Below, one piece after another: positions 8,446 through 50,688 of a stretch of DNA of 64,000 bases. The first letter of the stretch is position 1; each line of letters starts with the position of its first letter. The stretch covers positions 1-64,000 of the forward strand of contig CACVAS010000107.1 of assembly GCA_902727855.1 (NCBI GenBank). The letters are read 5' to 3'. Made by a program: the position numbers and the translations under genes. The stretch is from an uncultured Sulfurovum sp. (GTDB lineage Bacteria; Campylobacterota; Campylobacteria; Campylobacterales; Sulfurovaceae). Below the pieces are notes generated by a model. That model was not told where the DNA came from. It did no database searches and saw only the letters and a list, made by a program, of their open reading frames with translations.

Positions 8446-10179
8446 CTAAAAGGGCAAATATATTTTGTCAACTAATTCGTTATATTCACTTTTAGCATCA
8501 GAATCGATGGTGATTCCCCCGCCACTTTTGTAAAATAAAGCATGGTTTTCTTTTTCTATAAAACGTATCATCACACCTGAACGTAGAGATTTTCCGTCAA
8601 AGAGACCAAAAACACCAGTGTAAAACCCTCTGTCAAAGTTTTCTACATTGTCTATAATGTTAATAGTACTTTGTTTAGGAGTCCCTGTAATAGACCCAGC
8701 AGGTAAAAGTTGAGACAACAGGGTACCTATAGTGTCTTTCCAGTTAGGTGGAAGAGTTGCTGTAATCTTGGAACTTACCTGCAAAAGTTCTTTGTCTCCA
8801 GCCTGTATCTTCTCTACGTACCTAAATTTTTCTACCTTGACGTTTGAACCAACAATACCTAAATCATTACGCATAAGGTCTACTATCATGACATGTTCTG
8901 CCATCTCTTTTTCGTCTGCAAGTATTTTTTCTTGTGCGTAAGGTATATTGGCATCTATAGTCCCTTTCATAGGATATGTCGCGATGGTGTCATCTTCTAT
9001 TTGAACAAATCGTTCAGGTGAAAAACAGATAAACTCATTTTTATAGTAAAGTTTAAATTTTGCCTTGGCATAAGTAAAAATTTCTTTAAGTGAGAAGTTT
9101 GTCTCTATGGGAGTTTGAAACGTAAGGTTTATAAGGTAGGTATTGCCAGAGCGTATCTCTTCTAGGATGTTATCTAGCGCTTTTTTATATGTGTAAAAAT
9201 CTACAGGGCTTTTAGAAAAGGTAAACGCTTTGTCTCTTTTTTTTACAGGATAATTACGCCAATCTTCTAACTTGTAGTAGATGTCATCATCTAAATCTTG
9301 AAGCGCTTGTGCAAAGATTTTTGTTTTGTTATAAGAGACAATAAAAAGAAAAGGTGTACGTGATTTACCCAATCTATCTATGGTATCAAAGTCCTCTTTA
9401 AATGGGTCAGGCGTTGAAAATACACCATTTTTTTTCACTATTTTTGACACAAGTGACCTAGATATCCCAAGATGTTTAGCAATACTCGCTTGAGTATAGC
9501 CATCTTGCAGTGCTATACCTATAGCACTGTTTCTATCTTTGCGTCTAAAGTGCTCTTTTAGTGTTTTACTATATGCTATGGTTTTTGTATTATCGTGAGT
9601 CAGTACTTTTTGTTTTTGTATTTTAGTCAGTATCTCTAACTCTTCATCTCCTAGTGCTACACCTATCATCTCTTGTATGTTTTCATAGTCTAGCTCTAAG
9701 AGTAGTTTGGAGTCAAGTGTGCAGGGTGGGGGCGTTTGTCTGTTGGCTATACATGATGCCAGTGTATACGGGTATTCACCTACAGTAGTAGCCAGACCAG
9801 CTTCAATAGGGTTTTGTTCTATGTAGCGTATGAGTGTATAGTAGTAGGACTCTGAGTTGATGTATCTAGAGTAGAATCTGCCTTGCCAAAAATGCCCAGA
9901 ACGTTTCTGCTTTTTATTGGCATAAATGGCATAGTTACTGTTGATATGTTTCATAAAGAGTGAAAGGTTCTCTCGGTGTGTCTCTACAAGTAGATGAAAA
10001 TGATTGGACATCAGACAATAGTCATGCAATACCACAGCATACGCCTTACATGCTTTACAGACAATGCCTAAAAATACAGCATAATCAGACTCGCCTACAA
10101 ATATATCACTACGGTTTACTCCGCGGTTAATAACATGATGGTATCCTGCTAAGTCAATGCGTGGTCGTCTAGGCATCAA
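8446..10179 (-). CDS. pabB: RAYT transposase - aminodeoxychorismate synthase component I in-frame fusion
   Basis: 577 aa in one frame. Residues 1-~255 are a REP-associated tyrosine transposase (Y1/IS200-like HUH fold): NHFHLLVE carries the HxH metal site, YIEQNPIEAGL the catalytic Tyr region, and YTQASIAKHLGISRSLVSKI is a C-terminal helix-turn-helix. Residues ~265-577 are PabB, which makes 4-amino-4-deoxychorismate for folate: TYPMKGTI, AEHVMIVDLMRNDLG and PAGSITGTPKQ are chorismate-enzyme motifs. The junction (NGVFSTPDP) is encoded by an inverted repeat that also lies upstream of the transposase. No ATG exists between the junction and the PabB core, so PabB seems to depend on read-through from the transposase or a weak internal TTG. 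Confidence 0.88.
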   Translation of the reverse strand: MMPRRPRIDLAGYHHVINRGVNRSDIFVGESDYAVFLGIVCKACKAYAVVLHDYCLMSNHFHLLVETHRENLSLFMKHINSNYAIYANKKQKRSGHFWQGRFYSRYINSESYYYTLIRYIEQNPIEAGLATTVGEYPYTLASCIANRQTPPPCTLDSKLLLELDYENIQEMIGVALGDEELEILTKIQKQKVLTHDNTKTIAYSKTLKEHFRRKDRNSAIGIALQDGYTQASIAKHLGISRSLVSKIVKKNGVFSTPDPFKEDFDTIDRLGKSRTPFLFIVSYNKTKIFAQALQDLDDDIYYKLEDWRNYPVKKRDKAFTFSKSPVDFYTYKKALDNILEEIRSGNTYLINLTFQTPIETNFSLKEIFTYAKAKFKLYYKNEFICFSPERFVQIEDDTIATYPMKGTIDANIPYAQEKILADEKEMAEHVMIVDLMRNDLGIVGSNVKVEKFRYVEKIQAGDKELLQVSSKITATLPPNWKDTIGTLLSQLLPAGSITGTPKQSTINIIDNVENFDRGFYTGVFGLFDGKSLRSGVMIRFIEKENHALFYKSGGGITIDSDAKSEYNELVDKIYLPF

Positions 10180-31566: not shown

Positions 31567-33060
31567 ATGTTTGGAATGTTTGGTAAAAAGTCAGATGCAA
31601 ATGACGTGAAAACAGAAGAGGTAATCTCTCATCAAAGGGTCATAGCCCAAGCAAAGATTTTTTTTGGTTCGTTAGCCGAAGTACGTGAAATACAATCTGA
31701 AAGATGTAGCCCTTTTGATGGTAGAGTAGTGAGTACAGCACCTATATGTGATGCAGAAGATACACATAAAACACTTAAGATTGCAAAAAATGCTACACAG
31801 GCAGCAAAAAATGCTTCATTGTCACAGCGTATTTTGTGGCTTGAAGATGTAGCAGAAAAGTTGACAGAACAAAAAGAAGACTTTGCATTGATGCTCACTA
31901 AAGAAGTGGCAAAACCAATCGCATTTTCTCGTATAGAAGTAGAGCGTTGTGTGGAGACTATACGTTTAACAGCTATGGAGTTAGCCAATTTACATGGTGA
32001 AACCATACCTACAGATGTGATGCCTTCCGGTAAGAAAACACTCTCTTACTTTAGACGTGAACCCGTGGGTGTTGTTGCATGTATCACGCCATTTAACTTT
32101 CCATTGAACCTTGTTGCACACAAAATAGCGCCAGCTTTGGGTGCAGGAAATACTGTTGTACTTAAACCTACGCCAGAAGCGCCAATGACAGCCTATATGT
32201 TTGCAAAACTTTTTGTAGACTCTGAATATGCAACAAAAGATGCACTCAGTGTAGTGTATGGGGATGCTGAGGTAGGTGCTGCGTTGGTCCAAAGTGACAT
32301 ACCTAGGGTTATCTCTTTTACAGGTTCAGTACCTGTTGGTAACATTATCACAAAACAAGCTGGCATTAAAAAAGTAAGTTTAGAGTTAGGTGGTAATGCT
32401 GCAACTTATATAGATACTTCTGCAGATTTAAAAACAGCTGCAAACCGTTGTGCTTTTGGAGCATTTTATAACTCGGGTCAAGTCTGTATATCACTCCAAC
32501 GTATTTATGTCAATGAAGATGTCTATGATGATTTTGCTCGCTATATGTCAGAAGAGACAAACAAATTAAAAGTAGGTTCTCCTTATGAAGAAGATACATT
32601 TTTAGGCCCACTCATAGATGATGAATCACGTGAACGTGCCAACGGATGGATAGACTCTGCAATTTCAGAAGGGGCTACTGTACTTACAGGTGGAGAACAA
32701 AATGAAAGCATTTTTTTACCTACAGTCATGGCAGATGTCACTGATGATATGAAAATCATTTGTGAAGAGGTCTTTGCACCGATTGTGAGTCTTGTAAAAG
32801 TGCCAAATTATGAAGTCGCCATAGAGAAGATGAATAACTCTCCGTATGGGCTACAGTTTTCTATCTTTACCAATGATTTGAAGTTGACACAGAGGTTTAT
32901 AGATGATGCCGAGTGTGGTGGTGTGGTGATTAATGACATCCCAACACTTCGTTTTGATGTACAACCTTATGGAGGCTCTAAGCTTTCAGGTGTTGGGCGT
33001 GAAGGACCTAAATGGGCACTTGAAGAGTTTACAGAAGTTAAGTCTGTTGTGATATGCTAA
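31567..33060 (+). CDS. NAD(P)-dependent aldehyde dehydrogenase
   Basis: 497 aa. The ALDH signature is complete: CITPFNFPLNLVAHKIAPAL, FTGSVPVGN, LELGGNAA (general-base Glu) and GQVCISLQRIYV (catalytic Cys). Non-acylating phosphorylating GAPN-like or lactaldehyde-type activity are both possible; the substrate is not evident. It is followed after 25 bases by a DUF420 gene. Confidence 0.9.
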   Translation: MFGMFGKKSDANDVKTEEVISHQRVIAQAKIFFGSLAEVREIQSERCSPFDGRVVSTAPICDAEDTHKTLKIAKNATQAAKNASLSQRILWLEDVAEKLTEQKEDFALMLTKEVAKPIAFSRIEVERCVETIRLTAMELANLHGETIPTDVMPSGKKTLSYFRREPVGVVACITPFNFPLNLVAHKIAPALGAGNTVVLKPTPEAPMTAYMFAKLFVDSEYATKDALSVVYGDAEVGAALVQSDIPRVISFTGSVPVGNIITKQAGIKKVSLELGGNAATYIDTSADLKTAANRCAFGAFYNSGQVCISLQRIYVNEDVYDDFARYMSEETNKLKVGSPYEEDTFLGPLIDDESRERANGWIDSAISEGATVLTGGEQNESIFLPTVMADVTDDMKIICEEVFAPIVSLVKVPNYEVAIEKMNNSPYGLQFSIFTNDLKLTQRFIDDAECGGVVINDIPTLRFDVQPYGGSKLSGVGREGPKWALEEFTEVKSVVIC

Positions 33061-34047: not shown

Positions 34048-34356
34048 ATGAAGATAGTATCGGATAATTCAGAGTTTTTAGATAAGGTTCATAAAGAATT
34101 AAAACTGGCACATATAAAAGTGAAAAAAGAAACAAAACCTGTTGATGGTGCTATGGCTGATGAGATAACTACGGCTTTAGACTTACTTGACATGGCACAA
34201 GAAAATTGGGAAAGAGTAGCTTTTTATGTAGGCGCAGTTCGAGAGACAGCTAAATATTTAAAAGCCTCCATTAAAGTAGAAAAAAAAGATGGAACATTTA
34301 TTTCTTGGGAAGAATATGAAAAGATGACAGACGAAGAAAAAACAGAGGTTTTTTAG
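34048..34356 (+). CDS. small conflict-system component (EACC1-like)
   Basis: 102 aa. First gene of the island, 6 bases before the caspase-like gene and preceded by AAGGTGAGG. The pattern (short helix, KPVDGAMADEITTALDLL, a helical middle, then IKVEKKDGTFISW) recalls the effector-associated constant component EACC1, a small protein that recurs in vWA-MoxR conflict systems. Identification is by pattern only. It probably links sensor and effector. Confidence 0.6.
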   Translation: MKIVSDNSEFLDKVHKELKLAHIKVKKETKPVDGAMADEITTALDLLDMAQENWERVAFYVGAVRETAKYLKASIKVEKKDGTFISWEEYEKMTDEEKTEVF

Positions 34357-34361
34357 TCTAA

Positions 34362-35735
34362 ATGAAAAGAGTTGCTTTTATCTATAGTGGAGATGATACT
34401 GGATTGAACTCATTAGAACACAATAGAAATGGAGTTGCTCAAAAATTAAAAGACTTTGGTGGCTGGGAAACTACTATTAACAAAAAGCTTGATAGTGAGT
34501 TGACTTTTATAGAAGATTTAGAAAAATATCAAGATGATGATATTGATAGTCTTTTAATTTATTATACTGGACATGGTGAAATTGCTGAGCCTTTTGAGAC
34601 ATTTCAACTTAAAATCTCTGATAAACAAGGTATTACTTTAGATACTTTGTATTCAAAAGTCTATCAATGCTTTTCAAATGGAAGTAGTGCCTTACCATTA
34701 AAGTTAGCGATTGTTTTGGATGCTTGTTATAGTGGTGATACTGTTTATAAAGCTGAGCAGTTTGGAACCAGTGAAATTGTCGCATCTTCATTAGCAAGTC
34801 AACAAAGTTTTGAATTGGGTTTTCCCAAAGATAAAAATGCTCAAGAAGTTAAATCTAAAATGAGTCTTTTTTCTCACTATTTTTGCGAAGCTATTGAAAC
34901 ATTACAGACTGAATTAGAATTAATAAACCTTTTACATATTCGTAACTATATTAATGGTTATGTGAAGTTACAAACAAGTCCCTATTCTTTTAAAAGTATT
35001 TATGATGACAACCCTATGACTATTGCCAAAGGAAGTTTACAAGAAGAGTATCTAGCTGATATTGAGATGATATATGTCTATGTCTTCCCTAATGACAATC
35101 AATATGAAGTAGTTGTAAACCATGAACCAGTATTGAGTGTAGATAAAGATGAGTTTGAAACTGAAGATGTTCAGAAACAGATTATTGATAAAATTAATGC
35201 ACTTATAGTTCCTTTTGTAAATTCAAGAGTAGAGTTAATGTTACCCAAAGAGTTATATTCTAAAACGTTACCACTATGGAGAGAGCAGATAACTTCACGT
35301 TGTGAAACTATTATTCGTTCTGAGTATAAAGCATCAATGGCTGAGAACTGGTTACCTCAACTTAAGAAACGTTGGAAAGATATTTTTGATATTTGTCAAA
35401 ATAAGAGTTTTTTACATAATGATGTAACAACTAAAGTTCAAAATGAAGCTATGCAACACCCTAAACGTATATCAGTACTTGTTGAAAAACAAGTTCAAGA
35501 TGTAAAAGTATTTGATGGTATAGATCAATACTATTTTATTGCACTTTGGATTAATAGTTGTGATAATGAGGAACATTATAAAAACATGATAACAAATGTC
35601 GGAACAAAACCTTTATGTAAATTATCGGAGAATATAAGGTCACAAGTTGTTGATAATGAAAAGAATTGCAGTTCAAATATAAATTTTATGTGGGATGATC
35701 CACATACTTACCAAAAGGAGAAAAGATATGGCTAA
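34362..35735 (+). CDS. caspase-like protease with VMAP-C-like C-terminal domain
   Basis: 457 aa. Residues 1-~230 form a caspase/metacaspase (C14) fold: catalytic His71 in YYTGHGE and Cys122 in VLDACYSG. Residues ~235-457 resemble the C-terminal domain of vWA-MoxR-associated proteins (VMAP-C): FPNDNQYEVVVNHEPVLS, VELMLPKELYSKTLPLWREQ and a following helical part. In such ternary systems this protein couples the MoxR/vWA module to a toxic effector, here a protease that could kill or arrest the cell. The MoxR start codon lies inside its last codons. Confidence 0.82.
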   Translation: MKRVAFIYSGDDTGLNSLEHNRNGVAQKLKDFGGWETTINKKLDSELTFIEDLEKYQDDDIDSLLIYYTGHGEIAEPFETFQLKISDKQGITLDTLYSKVYQCFSNGSSALPLKLAIVLDACYSGDTVYKAEQFGTSEIVASSLASQQSFELGFPKDKNAQEVKSKMSLFSHYFCEAIETLQTELELINLLHIRNYINGYVKLQTSPYSFKSIYDDNPMTIAKGSLQEEYLADIEMIYVYVFPNDNQYEVVVNHEPVLSVDKDEFETEDVQKQIIDKINALIVPFVNSRVELMLPKELYSKTLPLWREQITSRCETIIRSEYKASMAENWLPQLKKRWKDIFDICQNKSFLHNDVTTKVQNEAMQHPKRISVLVEKQVQDVKVFDGIDQYYFIALWINSCDNEEHYKNMITNVGTKPLCKLSENIRSQVVDNEKNCSSNINFMWDDPHTYQKEKRYG

Positions 35736-36684
35736 TACAGACTGGTGTTACTTTCAAGGTGATAGTGAACAAAAAGAGTTTAAAGCACCCACAGCACCAC
35801 CATGGAGAATTAGAAAAAATAGAGTAAAGAGTTATTGTACCTTTTCAGATAAAGTTAAAAAGATGGTTTCAGCAGCTTTGATTTTGAGAAGACCTCTTCT
35901 TATTACAGGTAATCCTGGGATTGGTAAGTCTTCTTTGGCAGAAGCAGTTATGCATGAGTTAAAGCTAGGTGATGAGGTACTTTACTGGCGAATTGGAACA
36001 CAGAGTAAGTTAAAAGATGGTCTCTACTCTTATGATGCTTTGTCTCGTTTGCAAGATGTTCAAACAGGTGAAGAAGATTCTGAAGGTGAAAAAATCTCTA
36101 AAAAAATTGAAAACTATTTGAAATTAGAAGCTTTAGGTACAGCTTTTACTTCTAAAACACAACGTGTTGTCCTTATAGATGAGATAGATAAAAGTCCTAT
36201 TGATTTACCAAATAATTTACTGCATATATTTGAAGAGAATGAGTTTGAGATACCTGAACTAAAGCGTTTAAAGAACTATAGTTTTGACAATGGTGAAGGT
36301 TTTCATACAATCGATAATGGTCTAGTAAAATGTGATATCGATACGTTTCCACTTATCATTATGACCTCTAATGGTGAACGTGACTTCCCAATGGCATTTA
36401 TGCGTCGTTGTCTTCACTTAGAGCTTAAAGACCCAACGGACAAAGAGTTAGCTAAAATTGTCAATAAACATTTTGAACAGATAAAAGTTAAACTTGACCA
36501 AGAGAAGTTAGAGAAGATTATCAGGTCATTTATTAAACTACGAGATAGTGAAGAGAACAAAGTATATCTTTCAACAGATCAGTTGCTTAATGCTGTCTAT
36601 TTGATGGAACAAGATGAAAGTATTGACCTTACGAATGCTGATGATGAGATGATTGATGGTATTTGGAAAAATCTTTTAGGTTAG
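35728..36684 (+). CDS. MoxR-type AAA+ ATPase of the conflict system
   Basis: 318 aa. Walker A GNPGIGKSS (about 61-69), Walker B VVLIDEIDKSP (about 145-155), sensor MTSNGERDFPMAFMRRC with the arginine finger. ATG 35728 has AAGGAG upstream and overlaps the caspase gene by 8 bases. MoxR proteins remodel client complexes with vWA partners; here the vWA partner follows after 4 bases. Confidence 0.9.
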   Translation: MANTDWCYFQGDSEQKEFKAPTAPPWRIRKNRVKSYCTFSDKVKKMVSAALILRRPLLITGNPGIGKSSLAEAVMHELKLGDEVLYWRIGTQSKLKDGLYSYDALSRLQDVQTGEEDSEGEKISKKIENYLKLEALGTAFTSKTQRVVLIDEIDKSPIDLPNNLLHIFEENEFEIPELKRLKNYSFDNGEGFHTIDNGLVKCDIDTFPLIIMTSNGERDFPMAFMRRCLHLELKDPTDKELAKIVNKHFEQIKVKLDQEKLEKIIRSFIKLRDSEENKVYLSTDQLLNAVYLMEQDESIDLTNADDEMIDGIWKNLLG

Positions 36685-36688
36685 AATT

Positions 36689-39028
36689 TTGAAACAAGAA
36701 CTTGAAGAGCTAATTTCTTACTTACACCGTCTTGACCATGTAAATATGGATAAAATGGACGATGCACAATTAGCAGACATACTATGGTTGGCTACGCACA
36801 TACCAGAAGTACAAAAAGCTAGGCAAAAGAAGTCAAACAGTGAGTTTTTGAAATGGTTACGTAAGTGGTTCTCTTCTTTATTTTCAAGCAATATAAAATA
36901 TAAAGACAAAAACGAGGAAAATAAAAATAAGAACACCATTGATCAAGATGACTTGATTGTAGAGGAGTCTACGCCTCTTATTCCAAAACGATTAAAAGAT
37001 AGCAATCAATTTAGTGTTCAAATTCCTCAAAAGAGAGATTTTTTTATAAATAATGAACTTTTAAAAGCATTAGAACCTTTGAAGATTAGTCATGTTTCGA
37101 GTCAAGAGAGTTTAGAAGTTGATGTAGATGAAACTGTAGATAGTTTTGCTCAGACCAATGTACTTAAACCTAAATTTCAAGCCAAAGTTGAAAACTACTA
37201 TGATTTATATTTGATGATAGACATAAGTGAGTCGATGTATATTTGGCAAGAGAGTATCGAAGTTTTTATGAAAAAGTTAGAGATATTTTCTATCTTTAAA
37301 ACGATTAAATTTTTGTACCTTGATAGTTCGGAAAATGAAGCACAGATATATAACAATAAACACAAAACTTCCAAAGCTTCTAAGTTGTTAAATCATGAAG
37401 GACGTAGTATTCTTTTTATCATTACTGATTGTATCGCTCCTGCTTGGAGTAGGGGTGATATGATGGCGAAGCTTTATGGGTATCAGAAAAGAATGCCAAC
37501 AAGCATCATCAATATGTTACCTAGAAGAATGTGGAAAGGTACAGTACTTAGACAAACAAACATTACAAGACTAAAAAGAGAAGGTCAAGTCATAAGTTCA
37601 GATATAGATGAATTGTTACTTTCATTTGATCAAAACTACTTTAAACAAGATGTTTTAAAAGTTCCTATTGCCAACTTTTCTATAGATAACTTTAGAGCTA
37701 TGGCAAGTTTTATGAGTGGTAGAGTAGATAGCTCATGTAGAGGAATCATCGCTAGTATAGAGGAGTTTTCAAATCAACAAGAAAAAGAGTTAACTGAGGA
37801 ATTAACAGCAGATGAACGTGTTCAAGAGTTTTTTAACCACAGCTCAAGTTCTGCTCATAAATTGGCACTCTATCTCTCTGTTTGTACCCATTTAAATTTT
37901 CCTATTATGAAAATGATTCAACACAATATGCTTCCAGACTCGACGCAGTTAGATTTTGCAGAGTTTTCTGTGGGTGGGCTTTTAGATAAAAGTAAAAAAG
38001 ATGAATTTTATACATTTCATACAGGAGTAAGAGAACTATTACAAGAGAAACTGAGTCCTTACAAATCAGCAGAGATATTTGAAAGAAACTCAAGGTTTAT
38101 TGCCAAAAACTTAGGTTCATCCTTAGAGTTTTCTGCATTATTAATGGATGAGAGTAGTAATGATGAATGGACAAATAAGGATAAAATATTTGCTGAAATG
38201 TCTTTTTCTGTTTTGGAACGTTTGGGTGGTAATTATCAACAACGAGTAGAGAGAATTCGTAGAAATAGATTTGGAAATAGTCATAAGAAGAAAGATTTAC
38301 CAAAAGAGGTAATTCATGAAATAGTCTTCAATAGTGATTCTGAAGATAAAGACACCATCCACCCAAAAACCAACACCTACCAAATGGGTTCAAACACTGG
38401 AGATGACGATGAAAAACCAGTCCACCAAATCACTTTCGACTACGACTTCGCTATAGCAAAAACCCCAGTAACCTTTGAAGAGTATGACTTATATTGTGAA
38501 GATACCAAAACAAAAAAACCAGATGATGAAGGTTGGGGAAGAGGACAACGACCTGTTATAAATGTTTCGTGGAATGATGCAGAGGGATACTGTAAATGGT
38601 TAAGTAAAAAAACAAAAAAAGAGTACAGACTACCAACAGAAGCAGAGTGGGAGTATGCTTGTCGAGCTGGAACAACTACTAAGTGGAGTTTTGGAGATGA
38701 TGAAAAAGCGTTAGATAATTATGCCTGGTATACTAAAAACTCTAATAGTAAAACACACCCAGTAGGTAAAAAGTTGCCAAATCCATGGGGCTTATATGAC
38801 ATGTATGGAAATGTATGGGAATGGTGTCAAGATGACTGGTTAAATAATTACAATGATACTCCTAGAGATGGAACAGCCTATGAAGATGAAAGTACAGATA
38901 GTAAAGTTGTTCGTGGTGGGTCGTGGGTCGTTATTGCTTTCTTCACTCGGTCTGTCTATCGTATCGATGGGGATCCTTCTTATCGTTATTTCAGTGGGGG
39001 GTTTCGTCTCCTCAGAACTTTACCTTAG
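36689..39028 (+). CDS. vWA protein with C-terminal FGE-sulfatase domain bearing a DGR-type variable tip
   Basis: 779 aa, TTG start. An N-terminal helical part (1-160) leads to a vWA domain (~168-340) with MIDAS-like DISES at 178-182, then a helical middle (~340-550) and an FGE-sulfatase/C-type-lectin-fold domain (~557-779: YRLPTEAEWEYACRAG, GNVWEWCQDDW, RGGSW 742-746, GGFRLLRT). The FGE active-site cysteines are not evident, so binding rather than catalysis is expected. Residues 747-770 are the variable stretch that matches the template repeat at 39215. As third component with MoxR and the caspase-VMAP protein it is the likely sensor. A TAG in a dispersed repeat ends the gene. Confidence 0.88.
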   Translation: MKQELEELISYLHRLDHVNMDKMDDAQLADILWLATHIPEVQKARQKKSNSEFLKWLRKWFSSLFSSNIKYKDKNEENKNKNTIDQDDLIVEESTPLIPKRLKDSNQFSVQIPQKRDFFINNELLKALEPLKISHVSSQESLEVDVDETVDSFAQTNVLKPKFQAKVENYYDLYLMIDISESMYIWQESIEVFMKKLEIFSIFKTIKFLYLDSSENEAQIYNNKHKTSKASKLLNHEGRSILFIITDCIAPAWSRGDMMAKLYGYQKRMPTSIINMLPRRMWKGTVLRQTNITRLKREGQVISSDIDELLLSFDQNYFKQDVLKVPIANFSIDNFRAMASFMSGRVDSSCRGIIASIEEFSNQQEKELTEELTADERVQEFFNHSSSSAHKLALYLSVCTHLNFPIMKMIQHNMLPDSTQLDFAEFSVGGLLDKSKKDEFYTFHTGVRELLQEKLSPYKSAEIFERNSRFIAKNLGSSLEFSALLMDESSNDEWTNKDKIFAEMSFSVLERLGGNYQQRVERIRRNRFGNSHKKKDLPKEVIHEIVFNSDSEDKDTIHPKTNTYQMGSNTGDDDEKPVHQITFDYDFAIAKTPVTFEEYDLYCEDTKTKKPDDEGWGRGQRPVINVSWNDAEGYCKWLSKKTKKEYRLPTEAEWEYACRAGTTTKWSFGDDEKALDNYAWYTKNSNSKTHPVGKKLPNPWGLYDMYGNVWEWCQDDWLNNYNDTPRDGTAYEDESTDSKVVRGGSWVVIAFFTRSVYRIDGDPSYRYFSGGFRLLRTLP
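38912..39019 (+). repeat. variable repeat VR1 (DGR target) in the vWA-FGE gene
   Basis: 108 bases from the Arg codon of RGGSW to the Thr of FRLLRT. Aligned without gaps to the template at 39215, it differs between the Trp codon and GGG at 26 of 72 positions by hand count; 21 of these are adenines in the template. The flanks (CGTGGTGGGTCGTGG and GGGTTTCGTCTCCTC) are identical. Confidence 0.88.
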
Positions 39029-39120
39029 CTTCGACAAGCTCAGCTTCCGAGGTTTTTGGTCTTTTTTACCCTTGGGATTCTTTCTTTTGGTTTTTTCTTT
39101 TGCGATGAATATCGCACGAT
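39020..39120 (+). repeat. 3' tail duplicated after both FGE genes
   Basis: The sequence from the stop codon onward (TAGCTTCGACAAGCTCAGCT, then TCCGAGG and TTTACCCTTGGGATTCTT) recurs nearly unchanged at 40674-40745. The copy suggests duplication of an FGE-VR-tail unit, or conserved DNA needed for retrohoming. Confidence 0.75.
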
Positions 39121-39164
39121 AAACTTTGAATTGAATAAATGTTTTTAATTTTCTCTGTGAGATG

Positions 39165-39179
39165 GTCACACCTACGGTC
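39165..39179. repeat. 15-base dispersed repeat
   Basis: GGTCACACCTACGGT occurs here and again at 51063-51077, close to both DGR-like loci. Both copies sit in non-coding DNA. Confidence 0.5.
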
Positions 39180-39214
39180 GGCATGATTGAAATTGTTTGT
39201 GGAGGTAGTACCTT

Positions 39215-39322
39215 CGTGGTGGGTCGTGGAACAATAATGCTAACAATACACGTTCGGCTTATCGTAACAATAGGAATCCTACTAATCGTAATAACAATAG
39301 GGGGTTTCGTCTCCTCAAAACT
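39215..39322 (+). repeat. template repeat (TR) of a diversity-generating retroelement
   Basis: A non-coding 108-base copy of the FGE C-terminal tip in which the variable codons are nearly all AAC or AAT. In the VR frame it reads RGGSW, then [20 protein letters not shown] and a further Asn run, then GFRLLKT. A stop codon 9 bases upstream in that frame shows it is not translated as an FGE. 30 of 72 core bases are A. The remaining 450-base gap (39029-39480) holds no gene; no reverse transcriptase or Avd gene is nearby. Confidence 0.88.
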
Positions 39323-39337
39323 TACTGTGCCAGAGTT

Positions 39338-39355
39338 TATAACAGTGATGTTATA
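39338..39355 (+). ncRNA. hairpin just 3' of the template repeat
   Basis: TATAACA-GTGA-TGTTATA is a perfect 7-bp stem with a 4-base loop, 15 bases after the TR. It could be part of the structured DGR RNA that primes reverse transcription, or a weak terminator. Confidence 0.4.
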
Positions 39356-39480
39356 GAGCGTGCCATTTTTAAGTTCACTACCTCCTCGGCTTTGCCGTAA
39401 ACAGAGATGGTGGTGTTGGTTTTTAAATCAGCATCATCCTAAATGTGTTATAATAAATCAATAATTTAAAAGGATAGAGC

Positions 39481-39681
39481 ATGAGTTTAAATGATATTAT
39501 TAATGAAGCATTGACTTTGAAGCCACAAGAGCGTTATCTTATTATTGAAAATTTAGTTCAGAGTTTAAACCAACCTAATCCTCAGATAGACAAACTTTGG
39601 ATAGAAGAATCAATGAAGCGTGTTGAAGCTACTAAACAAGGTACATTGAAAACAGTTTCTTATGAAGATGTTTTTTCATGA
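39481..39681 (+). CDS. addiction-module antitoxin
   Basis: 66 aa. It fits the small addiction-module component family: EALTLKPQERYLIIENLVQSL followed by IDKLWIEESMKRVEA. It overlaps the toxin by 4 bases. It is proposed to neutralise the RelE/ParE-like toxin and to repress their promoter (AAAGGATAGAGC is its ribosome site). Confidence 0.85.
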   Translation: MSLNDIINEALTLKPQERYLIIENLVQSLNQPNPQIDKLWIEESMKRVEATKQGTLKTVSYEDVFS

Positions 39682-39965
39682 TGACTTTAGCATTTTCAGA
39701 GTTAGCTCAACAGGAGCTAGAAGATGCACGTGACTATTATAATTTACAACAAGAAAATCTTGGAGAAAGATTTAAAGAACATATAAAAGAGAGCATTGAT
39801 AACATTCAAGAGTTCCCTTTGCTCTACCCAAAAATTAATGATGTGCTTTATCGAGTTGTTGTACATAAGTTTCCATACAGTATTTTTTATATAGTAGATG
39901 AAAATAGAATTGTGATTATTTCTATCGCTCACCAAAACAGAAAACCTTTTTATCAGGTAGATTAA
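39678..39965 (+). CDS. RelE/ParE-family toxin
   Basis: 95 aa. The RelE/ParE pattern is clear: FSELAQQELEDARDYYN, LGERFKEHIKESIDNI, FPLLYPKI, VVVHKFPYSIFYIVDE and IISIAHQNRKP. RelE types cut mRNA at the ribosome and ParE types poison gyrase; the choice cannot be made here. The FGE gene starts directly after its stop, so it may share its transcript. Confidence 0.9.
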   Translation: MMTLAFSELAQQELEDARDYYNLQQENLGERFKEHIKESIDNIQEFPLLYPKINDVLYRVVVHKFPYSIFYIVDENRIVIISIAHQNRKPFYQVD

Positions 39966-40682
39966 ATGACAACAAAACCAAAATTTAAAGAACCAGAAAT
40001 GGTAAACATCATCCACCCAAAACCTAAAAAAAGTATGACTATAACTATGGTACATTTGCCTAAGGGTACGTTTATGTTTGGTGAAGGAAGTGGTGCTAAA
40101 AAAGTCAACATAGATGATGAGTTTGAGATAGGTAAATATCCTGTTACATTTGATGAATATGATGCTTATTGTGAAGATAAAAATATAGAAAAACCAGATG
40201 ATAGAGGTTGGGGAAGAGGAAAACGACCAGTTATAAATGTTTCGTGGCATGATGCACAGGCATACTGTAAATGGTTGAGTGACAAAACAAACAAAGAGTA
40301 CAGACTACCAACCGAAGCAGAGTGGGAATATGCTTGTCGAGCTGGAAAAAATACTAAGTGGAGCTTTGGAGATGATGAGAAAGAGTTGGGTAGGTATGCT
40401 TGGTATGATAAAAACTCTTATGATTTAGGTTCTAGTAATGAAGATTATGGAACACATCCTGTAGGCGAAAAACTGGCTAACCCATGGGGGTTACATGATA
40501 TGCATGGCAATGTATGGGAGTGGTGTGAAGATTGGTATGACAAAGATAAAAAAAGAAAAGTCCTTCGTGGTGGGTCGTGGGTCGATGATGCTAGCTTCTC
40601 TCGGTCTGCCTATCGTGTCAATTGGTATCCTACTATTCGTAATATCGATGGGGGGTTTCGTCTCCTCAGAACTTTACCTTAG
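39966..40682 (+). CDS. stand-alone FGE-sulfatase-domain protein with DGR-type variable tip
   Basis: 238 aa, beginning right after the toxin stop codon (TAAATG). It has no signal peptide. The FGE/C-type-lectin fold covers residues ~30-238: MVHLPKGTFMFGEG, YRLPTEAEWEYACRAG, GNVWEWCEDWYD, RGGSW at 201-205 and GGFRLLRT. It closely parallels the C-terminal domain of the vWA protein, so it arose by duplication. Residues 206-229 are the variable stretch. It may be an alternative sensor for the same conflict system. Confidence 0.88.
   Translation: MTTKPKFKEPEMVNIIHPKPKKSMTITMVHLPKGTFMFGEGSGAKKVNIDDEFEIGKYPVTFDEYDAYCEDKNIEKPDDRGWGRGKRPVINVSWHDAQAYCKWLSDKTNKEYRLPTEAEWEYACRAGKNTKWSFGDDEKELGRYAWYDKNSYDLGSSNEDYGTHPVGEKLANPWGLHDMHGNVWEWCEDWYDKDKKRKVLRGGSWVDDASFSRSAYRVNWYPTIRNIDGGFRLLRTLP
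40566..40673 (+). repeat. variable repeat VR2 (DGR target) in the stand-alone FGE gene
   Basis: Aligned to the template, 21 of 72 core positions differ by hand count and 17 of them are template adenines. VR1 and VR2 differ from each other at 18 positions, 17 at template adenines. The nearly identical 3' tail follows. Confidence 0.88.
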
Positions 40683-40745
40683 CTTCGACAAGCTCAGCTT
40701 CCGAGGGTTTTGGTCTTTTTTACCCTTGGGATTCTTGCTTTTGAT
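40674..40745 (+). repeat. second copy of the FGE 3' tail
   Basis: Nearly identical to 39020-39092, including the 20-mer starting at the stop codon. The following bases up to the protease gene contain no gene. Confidence 0.75.
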
Positions 40746-40857
40746 TTTTTGTATGTCGGTTTCTGTGATGCCGACAACTGTTAAACCTTACCCCATTAAC
40801 CTACAATTAGATAAAAGACTATAGAATATTTCACTAAATATAAGGAAATATCATTTA

Positions 40858-48723: not shown

Positions 48724-50688
48724 ATGTTCTATCTCAAAAAACGACTACTGTCTCTCTTTCTCGTGGCTTCTATGTCGCTCACATCACTCCAAGCATCAGA
48801 AGAACATAACCTGACAGATGTTCAGTTACATGCAGTGATGGGGATTATTACTAATTTTATATTAAGTTCTAGCCCAGTAGAACCTCCTATCACGCATAAT
48901 GGCACCACTTACGATACTGTGACCTCTCCTTACACGGGTAAAGTGTGGCTAGACAGAAACCTTGGAGCCAACAGAGTATGTACAGCAGTACAAGATGCCA
49001 ACTGTTATGGTGACTACTACCAGTGGGGTAGGGGGTTTGATGGACATCAAGAAGAAGACTCTAACGAAACCAATGTGCTGGCCCCTGATGTTCATAACCC
49101 AGGTTCTAGATTCATCACGTCGTCTGTTGATACTTATGACTGGACAGCAGGTATAGATGTCAATGGTACCCAAAGAATGGAAAAATGGGCTAAAGTAGAT
49201 GGAAGCTCAGTCTGTCCTACAGGCTTTAGAGTTCCTAGTATCAATGAACTTAAAGCAGAACTCTTTGAAGAAGGTGCAGACATCAATAACAGTGCAGATG
49301 CGTATGCCAGCTTCTTAAAACTCCCTTCTGCCGACTCTCGTAGTAACACTGGAGGCACAGTAAGTCATGTATTTACAAAAGGTTCTTTATGGGCAAATTC
49401 TATCTTTAACAGTGAAGGTGCAGAGATACGGTATGATTCTTTCGATGATGCAGGTGCAGGGGCTACCTACAGAGCCTATGGTGAAAACATACGGTGTATA
49501 CAAAGTGATGTCTCACCCGTTGTAGACATACCTGTGTTTACTTCAGATGATAACATCTCAGTAGATGAGGGCGAAACAGATGCGTTCACCATAACTGCAC
49601 CTACACATGGTAGTGTCATGTATGCCCTTTACGGAGTAGACAGTAGTGCCTTTGACATCAACATGACTACAGGGGTAGTCACCTTTAAAACAGCACCAGA
49701 CTTTGCCACAAAGTCAAGCTACACTCTGCTCGTAGCTGTCACAGCATCTTCTGGTAATGTCGTGACACAAGAGGTCACCATACACATCTTAGACACCACC
49801 CCACCCACATTCACCTCAGAAGACAACAGCACAGTAGCAGAAAACCAAACCTCTGCCATTACCTTGCAAGCCACAGATGCGAGTGCTATTAGTTACGCCA
49901 TCAGTGGAGCAGACAGTGCAGACTTTGATGTCAATGCCACGAGTGGGGTAGTCACTTTTAAAGTTGCACCAGACTTTGAGACAAAAGATACGTACACCTT
50001 TACAGCCACTACTACAGACGCGTTCGGGAATGAGAGTACGCAAGAGGTGACTATAGAGATAGAGGATGTCAATGAGACTATCGTCCATAATGGTACCACC
50101 TACGGTACAGTCATCTCACCTTACACAGGTAAAGAGTGGCTAGACAGAAACTTAGGAGCCAACAGAGTCTGTACCAGTTTTGATGACACAGAGTGTTATG
50201 GAGACTACTACCAATGGGGAAGAAACTTTGATGGACACCAAGAGAGTAACTCTACTACTACAAGTACTAGGGCTACAGATGTAAACGCTACGGGGAGTAG
50301 CTTTATAATAGGTAGTAGTGACTGGGCATCAGTAGATGGTACGGGTACAACAAGAACCACCAACTGGTCTGCTTTAGATGGTTCTTCTGTTTGTCCTGTA
50401 GGCTTTAGAGTACCCACACTCATTGAATTAAGAGCAGAGTTGTTAGATGCATGGTCTGCCCAAATACAAAATAGAGATGACGCCTTCAATAGTTTCCTTG
50501 CCTTGCCGTCAGCTGGTTACCGCAGCCGCCACTCAGGCTCCTTGGGCAATATGGGTTCGTGGGGTTACCTGTGGACTAGCTCGGTCGATCGTTCTTACTC
50601 GCACAGCGTCGACTTCTACAGTAGTGGTGCGTACTCGTACAACGACTATCGTGCCTACGGTTTCACGGTACGGTGTCTGAGGGATTAG
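48724..50688 (+). CDS. secreted FISUMP/cadherin protein with a candidate DGR variable tip
   Basis: 654 aa. Signal peptide (1-25). Two FISUMP (Fibrobacter succinogenes major paralogous) domains, ~55-260 and ~455-654, share GKxWLDRNLGANRVCT and CYGDYYQWGR. Between them lie two cadherin-like Ig repeats (~270-360, ~360-450). FISUMP domains have a C-type-lectin fold. The last 60 residues (AGY, then GSWGYLWTSS, then YRAYGFTVRCLRD) follow the known layout of DGR variable regions, and the codon use shifts there to C- and G-rich codons. Likely a cell-surface adhesin or ligand-binding protein. Confidence 0.85.
   Translation: MFYLKKRLLSLFLVASMSLTSLQASEEHNLTDVQLHAVMGIITNFILSSSPVEPPITHNGTTYDTVTSPYTGKVWLDRNLGANRVCTAVQDANCYGDYYQWGRGFDGHQEEDSNETNVLAPDVHNPGSRFITSSVDTYDWTAGIDVNGTQRMEKWAKVDGSSVCPTGFRVPSINELKAELFEEGADINNSADAYASFLKLPSADSRSNTGGTVSHVFTKGSLWANSIFNSEGAEIRYDSFDDAGAGATYRAYGENIRCIQSDVSPVVDIPVFTSDDNISVDEGETDAFTITAPTHGSVMYALYGVDSSAFDINMTTGVVTFKTAPDFATKSSYTLLVAVTASSGNVVTQEVTIHILDTTPPTFTSEDNSTVAENQTSAITLQATDASAISYAISGADSADFDVNATSGVVTFKVAPDFETKDTYTFTATTTDAFGNESTQEVTIEIEDVNETIVHNGTTYGTVISPYTGKEWLDRNLGANRVCTSFDDTECYGDYYQWGRNFDGHQESNSTTTSTRATDVNATGSSFIIGSSDWASVDGTGTTRTTNWSALDGSSVCPVGFRVPTLIELRAELLDAWSAQIQNRDDAFNSFLALPSAGYRSRHSGSLGNMGSWGYLWTSSVDRSYSHSVDFYSSGAYSYNDYRAYGFTVRCLRD
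50509..50688 (+). repeat. candidate variable repeat VR3 in the FISUMP gene
   Basis: GC rises to about 56% by hand count against roughly 40% in the rest. Codons at exposed positions are mainly NNC (TAC CGC AGC CGC CAC, later CAC AGC GTC GAC TTC TAC), as expected if AAC template codons were mutagenised at A. No template is in the window, so this rests on layout and codon pattern. Confidence 0.6.

Follow-up and report, generated by a model that had tools for sequence, protein, structure and literature searches.

A template repeat and two variable repeats without a reverse transcriptase: a likely remnant of a diversity-generating retroelement in an uncultured Sulfurovum

The stretch of DNA under study, here called the window, comprises the first 64,000 nucleotides (64 kb) of the 325-kb contig CACVAS010000107.1 from an uncultured Sulfurovum sp. 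(assembly GCA_902727855.1; 3.1 Mb in 170 contigs, with 9% contamination). It contains two genes whose 3' ends encode an FGE (C-type lectin) domain of the family PF03781 and, between them, a non-coding segment resembling both ends, which we describe as the template repeat (TR) and the two variable repeats (VR1 and VR2) of a diversity-generating retroelement (DGR). The genes leading up to and including the first target encode a caspase-like protein, a MoxR-type ATPase and the target itself, a SAV_2336/vWA-type protein, and from their sequences we predict a ternary conflict system in which the FGE domains would act as sensors (Table 1). The caspase assignment rests on a PF00656 score of 22.2 bits (cut-off 21.4) and is accompanied by a C-terminal VMAP-C similarity (PF20028, 26.3 bits) that stays below its cut-off of 27. 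The label MoxR was given to the ATPase, whose gene adjoins the vWA gene, on the basis of gene order. In the vWA/SAV_2336-type protein, the N-terminal model NF041121 (SAV_2336_NTERM) scores 259.7 bits (cut-off 200) and PF03781 matches at the C-terminus, whereas no vWA family of Pfam was matched and a vWA fold is not visible in a structure prediction of poor quality (mean pLDDT 44). PADLOC found no match for four of five window proteins and weak AAA matches only for the ATPase, and did not name the system. Between TR and the second target, a ParE-type toxin (PF05016) adjoins an addiction-module antitoxin (PF09720) in a ParDE-like pair. The solved structure closest in sequence to the second target, 2y3c, is that of Treponema denticola variable protein 1, a known DGR target. 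At gathering scores, no Rfam family matched within the window.

Table 1. Genes and sequence elements of the locus, with positions in the window.
Feature	Position	Strand	Basis
Small conserved protein, head of the operon	34048..34356	+	No Pfam match; equivalent position in L087 taken by a homolog of 59% identity
Caspase-like protein with VMAP-C-like C-terminus (third component of the ternary system)	34362..35735	+	PF00656, PF20028 scores
MoxR-type AAA ATPase	35695..36684	+	PF07728 (AAA_5) above cut-off; homolog of 83% identity in L087
vWA/SAV_2336-type protein with C-terminal FGE (C-type lectin) domain, first diversified target	36689..39028	+	NF041121, PF03781
Variable repeat VR1	38912..39019	+	27 differences from TR, 22 at template A
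172-base gap between VR1 gene and TR; place of Avd and reverse transcriptase in L034 and other relatives (about 1.9 kb in L034)	39029..39200	.	Locus comparison
5' arm of the stem bracketing TR, GGAGGTAGT	39201..39209	+	Pairs with 39377-39385 in 6 of 6 aligned TRs
Template repeat TR, non-coding, adenine-rich	39215..39322	+	Alignment
RNA element 3' of TR: AACTT/AAGTT stem and covarying apical hairpin (39336-39357)	39319..39375	+	Covariation, model R1
3' arm of the bracketing stem, ACTACCTCC	39377..39385	+	Pairs with 39201-39209
Antitoxin-like gene (addiction module component)	39481..39681	+	PF09720; absent between TR and VR2 in L034
ParE-type toxin gene	39678..39965	+	PF05016
Stand-alone FGE (C-type lectin) protein, second diversified target	39966..40682	+	PF03781; best PDB sequence match 2y3c
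Variable repeat VR2	40566..40673	+	22 differences from TR, 18 at template A

An earlier note on this DNA had described a non-coding segment of 108 bases that matches the 3' ends of two FGE genes without gaps, and our alignment bears this out. Among the 108 bases of TR, 34 are A, and the differences to both variable repeats concentrate at these positions (one-sided Fisher p = 4.4e-10 for VR1 and 5.5e-8 for VR2, in the gapless alignment with a test for adenine enrichment that the note had proposed as a check). Its hand counts of 26 differences for VR1 (21 at template A) and 21 for VR2 (17 at template A) agree exactly with ours when these are limited to the first 97 bases of this core; over all 108 bases, VR1 and VR2 differ from each other at 18 sites, 17 of which are template A, again as in the note. 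When the comparison is read in the reverse direction, no difference falls at an A of either VR. The first 15 bases of the core are the same in all three copies and so are the 18 bases of sites 86-103, which are followed by a single A-to-G difference at site 104 and a common AACTT. Upstream of the core, the matching runs do not exceed a few adjoining bases, and the likeness to the FGE genes does not extend there. All differences that do not fall at A are confined to sites 33-45: those at sites 33, 39, 42 and 45, each a third codon position, are common to both VRs, and the one at site 44 is found in VR1 only. AAC or AAT make up 12 of the 35 template codons, in which changes of adenine never yield a stop. 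The 68-base trailers that follow VR1 (39029-39096) and VR2 (40683-40750) are 96% identical, compared to about 55% for the FGE domains, pointing to 3' ends that were exchanged or duplicated recently.

We found no reverse transcriptase (RT) among the open reading frames of the window, and a genome-wide RT search placed none there either. The accessory protein Avd, which was recovered in the loci L034, L030, L080, L081 and L083 of related genomes, has no match between positions 33001 and 44000 of the window. Since a DGR is defined by its RT, we do not file the locus as a complete one.

Relatives of the locus were identified in DNA searches with TR, which matched 4 of 78 genomes of the genus, and with a longer stretch, which matched 13 of 175 genomes of the family, the own genome being included in both counts. 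A cognate RT, with at least 66% identity to the RT of L034, is present in 6 of these 13 genomes and missing from the own genome and from G005, G072, G133, G148, G171 and G173, of which G148 was matched over 37 bases only and G005, G171 and G173 are 72-85% complete. In L034 of genome G165, the genes for caspase, MoxR and vWA-FGE with its VR are followed by Avd, RT, TR and a second FGE gene with its VR, which is the gene order of the window plus about 1.9 kb of Avd and RT in the place of the 172 bases between VR1 and TR; the final bases of this short gap match the spacer between RT and TR in L034. The same order is found in G134 and G137 and in L080 of genome G168 (G168:C101), whose RT carries one in-frame stop and whose TR RNA has an insertion in its hairpin. 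In G009, VR, Avd, RT and TR stand in a row and the target is a KAP-NTPase-FGE protein, and L035 in G090 contains an RT in a locus that is cut by a contig end and does not cover Avd. The RT-bearing elements of G165, G090, G134, G137, G168 and G009 share the flanks of TR and the target domain with the window, which differs from them in lacking RT and, L035 excepted, the accompanying Avd. The Avd of L034 passes the NCBIfam model for this protein, whereas its RT reaches no RT model of NCBIfam above cut-off (the best being that of group II introns, at 145.5 bits with a cut-off of 300), so that its assignment to the DGR type rests on its Avd and its TR-VR neighbours. As a source of this RT clade, phages were considered and rejected, the best 80 of 109 relatives in IMG/VR being at most 37% identical.

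The relationship extends to the RNA. For its characterization we aligned six TRs, that of the window and those of five RT-bearing loci, leaving out G168 with its insertion. The arms GGAGGTAGT and ACTACCTCC enclose the TR of the window and pair at the corresponding place in all six; a second stem and a hairpin follow TR. The six share the same predicted fold, in which 98.7% of the alignment cells are paired and 8 of 25 pairs have changed on both sides, values that were each reached by none of 500 shuffles (a further count of pair types was reached by 26 of 500). Sliding the pairing partners against each other lowers the pairing to 55% or less. The hairpin accounts for most of the double changes (in 7 of its own 9 pairs) and 8 of the 9 pairs of the bracketing stem never vary; as the bracket hardly varies, the support from covariation sits in the hairpin, in an analysis that comprises six sequences and a structure derived from their own consensus. 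The folding energy of the TR region in the window is ordinary (z -0.37). A covariance model of the 3' part (R1) matches the window, which is among its six training sequences, with an E-value of 8e-23, and was found in 7 of the 175 family genomes, namely the six used for training and, weakly (E 5e-4), G168. In 6 of these 7 the cognate RT adjoins TR, the window being the exception. A class-wide search with stricter filters, in 397 genomes drawn evenly from a larger group and not including all R1-carrying genomes of the family, recovered the own genome and G090 only.

A second distinction of the window concerns the relation between template and targets. In the six RT-bearing loci, all 147 of 147 differences in ten TR-VR pairs fall at a template A within the first 97 bases of the core, compared to 38 of 47 in the two pairs of the window, where the remaining 9 of 47 do not (Fisher p = 1.5e-6 for non-independent pairs). 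These nine differences correspond to five distinct sites, four of them common to both VRs. The TR of the window differs from that of L080 at one position within sites 1-45, with sites 10-45 being equal, and at 12 positions within sites 46-97. The simplest account would be that TR acquired a patch from another TR by recombination, at a time when both VRs had already been written there for the last time. The implied absence of later full-length writing agrees with the missing RT without proving its loss. A better donor was sought among the TRs of the six relatives and rejected: the window's own TR fits both VRs best (5 and 4 non-A mismatches compared to 11-25), and none of the seven TRs matches the VRs of the window at all non-A sites.

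Variation among homologous proteins follows the adenines of the template. In nine of 12 non-self homologs of the vWA-FGE protein (P0131, P0132 and P0133 were left out), the residue matches that of the window at 20 of 152 template-A codons, defined by an A in position 1 or 2, and at 130 of 153 other VR codons. Even the closest homolog, with 480 of its first 545 residues identical, matches at 4 of 17 template-A codons compared to 13 of 17 others. As judged from these sequences, the pattern fits adenine-directed variation in the lineage and has no bearing on present activity. For the VR2 protein, among 120 listed of 7373 matches, none except the protein itself exceeds 76% identity.

The own genome encodes three RTs above the Pfam cut-off, an RT-Cas1 fusion and two of the DGR type, which are 39% and 37% identical to the RT of L034. 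The nearest to the locus, at 153 kb of the same contig (C107), belongs to another type of DGR that consists of a TR, an Avd-like gene (bAvd 33.7 bits, below the cut-off of 40), RT and two Lcl_C targets (C107:147.9-154.6 kb, L010), and its TR-VR differences are found at template A throughout (13 of 13 and 20 of 20, together 33 of 33). One of its targets is a surface-type protein of 1460 residues with FG-GAP, cadherin and Ig-like domains. The second DGR-type RT, on contig C147 (33.3-35.8 kb; L011 7287-9776), is accompanied by an Avd-like gene and three diverged repeat copies, none of which is an adenine-biased template toward the others; it thus seems to lack a template at its locus, a mirror image of the window. 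The RT-Cas1 fusion occupies a short contig (C130:1-3184) with a small Cas2-like gene adjoining it, as judged by eye. We found the bracketing motif at neither of the two DGR-type RT loci, and searches of the own genome by TR DNA, by pattern and with the RNA model revealed no second TR except for a relic on contig C105 (R1 match with E 0.0018). There, at 70-76 kb (L012), a second ternary system with TIR, MoxR-like, vWA-FGE and FGE genes contains two VRs; it lacks a TR but retains 32 bases of the flank 3' of TR, at 94%. Comparable losses are found elsewhere in the family: of the loci retrieved, that of G133 has the ternary system most similar to the window's (MoxR 83%, vWA 65%), with two VRs; its contig of 6.2 kb contains neither TR nor RT, and an RT match is missing from the whole genome of G133. 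In G072, where one of the VR genes is frameshifted, the system has a ribosomal protein S2-like gene nearby, which is also true of the window (judged by eye). A protein-only match, P0122, is nearer than G133, with 88%.

Two other proteins of the window were noted in passing. At 8446-10179 on the minus strand, a Y1 transposase domain, presumably of the REP-associated type, shares one reading frame, as a fusion, with a chorismate-binding (PabB-like) enzyme, and the protein encoded at 48724-50688 combines a cadherin domain with a Fib_succ_major-like region below cut-off and a second such region recognized by eye.

The arrangement can be compared to known systems. Ternary VMAP systems with DGR-linked FGS domains, whose TR is located in the same neighbourhood or elsewhere, have been described by Kaur et al., 2020 (PMC7159879), where TvpA is also named. 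As described there and in Dore et al., 2024 (PMC10907252), DGR-diversified VMAP systems share with the window the MoxR ATPase, the vWA protein with an FGE/FGS target at its C-terminus and an adenine-biased TR, and their peptidase-type VMAP partner has a candidate counterpart in the caspase-like protein. The window differs by its lack of RT and Avd and by the toxin-antitoxin pair between TR and the second target, and also by its host from the Sulfurovum group, those treated in the two sources being mainly cyanobacteria, gammaproteobacteria and multicellular bacteria. That DGR targets are antigen sensors is put forward in PMC10907252 as a proposal, untested there. The closest parallels are the loci 3, 4, 5 and 7 of Thiohalocapsa PB-PSB1, where targets remain and RT or TR has been removed or broken, with transposons or MITE-like repeats that interrupt or replace them; this account of RT-less or TR-less loci also reports coexisting intact variants and action in trans, the VRs of loci 4 and 5 matching a TR elsewhere (PMC10907252). 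In contrast, the window has kept its local TR, and no known TR is an exact counterpart of its VRs at the non-A sites. Remote DGR targets have been described (PMC7517822), and according to PMC8144416 its own survey would miss DGRs that act on them. With the element of phage BPP-1, the prototype of DGRs, in which a spacer RNA recruits RT and Avd (PMC12875486), the window shares the logic of TR and VR and a structured RNA 3' of TR, whereas in the relatives of the window, unlike in BPP-1, TR is located downstream of RT. BPP-1 further requires a hairpin after its VR (PMC3240598); short hairpins follow the VRs of the window, and none of note were seen after those of L034 and L030. Within the one library of open-licence papers that was searched, none contains both diversity-generating retroelement and Sulfurovum.

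Taken together, the adenine bias, the location of the VRs in C-terminal FGE domains and the homologous, RT-bearing DGRs of related genomes make it secure that TR and VRs originate from, and were written by, a DGR. The earlier note had read the adenine bias as the mark of DGR mutagenic retrohoming, and this holds for the origin of the repeats; it does not establish a working DGR, as the window contains no RT and its VRs disagree with TR at several sites other than A, unlike the ten TR-VR pairs of the RT-bearing relatives. The locus is thus likely a DGR remnant in which retrohoming is a matter of the past, and we consider it probable that this remnant is devoid of an RT acting on it, with its two predicted sensors now frozen. 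Its ancestral order would have been that of the relatives, with caspase protein, MoxR ATPase, vWA-FGE, Avd, RT, TR and second FGE. In the relatives, if they work like characterised DGRs, RT and Avd would be recruited by the RNA of TR, which would be copied with errors opposite adenines; the copy would then take the place of the 3' end in both target genes. For the window, we infer a loss of the RT and Avd genes from between VR1 and TR rather than a failure to gain them, as a consequence of which the element would be silent and the C-type lectin domains would keep their last versions, varying by ordinary mutation and recombination only.

Several observations weigh against this reading. The adenines and RNA pairs of TR have been kept and both VR frames are open, which implies that RT was either lost recently or that TR is still used. 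In a fragmented and partly contaminated assembly, an RT could be missed. The five non-A sites fall within 13 bases (clustering p = 0.0008), and a recombination patch rather than general drift may explain them. Finally, all 28 TR-VR differences in L080, whose RT carries a stop, fall at A, so non-A mismatches do not necessarily accompany a broken RT. The decay of L080 is probably very recent.

The alternative that survives best, if still unlikely, holds that an RT and Avd encoded elsewhere in the genome, such as those of the DGR at 153 kb of the contig, copy TR in trans and keep diversifying VR1 and VR2. The two DGR-type RTs and the well-preserved TR RNA are consistent with such a scenario, which is also the best explanation reported for some of the Thiohalocapsa loci (PMC10907252). 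However, the candidate enzymes are only 37-39% identical to the RT of L034 and lack the bracketing motif at their loci, and in the cases reported in the same source the VRs agree with the remote TR at every site other than A, an agreement that none of the seven TRs shows here. It is doubtful, and rated lower, that the orphan TR is a non-autonomous mini-DGR, whose structured RNA would be kept by selection with RT and Avd being supplied in trans by another DGR or by horizontal transfer. If this were true, cells would turn the diversification of their sensors on when they gain the enzyme and off when they lose it. We regard it as improbable, ranking below both, that the absence of RT is confined to this assembly or strain and that intact variants coexist in the population, as RT-intact variants do with RT-broken or RT-deleted ones at Thiohalocapsa loci (PMC10907252). 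While the assembly is fragmented, a single contig of 325 kb carries VR1, the 172-base spacer and TR, and the genome contains no other full copy of the spacer, only the initial 68 bases being found again behind VR2, so a collapse of repeats is not evident. The C-termini of FGE proteins are generally similar to each other, yet a reading of the TR segment as the end of an FGE gene that was copied by chance or left as a pseudogene is untenable given the RT-bearing homologs, the conserved flanks of TR and the lack of extended FGE homology upstream of the core.

With the frozen remnant as the preferred interpretation, the kind of system, a DGR-diversified ternary conflict system, is already known and the locus is new as a remnant. 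Surveys that start from RT cannot see a template and targets that persist without it, and the covarying TR RNA offers a probe for such orphan templates. The rule of zero non-A differences in RT-bearing loci could be used to time when a template last wrote its targets. Since loci in three states (complete, with a template but no enzyme, and with targets but no template) occur within a single family, it becomes possible to measure how fast and in which order DGRs decay and what becomes of frozen sensors.

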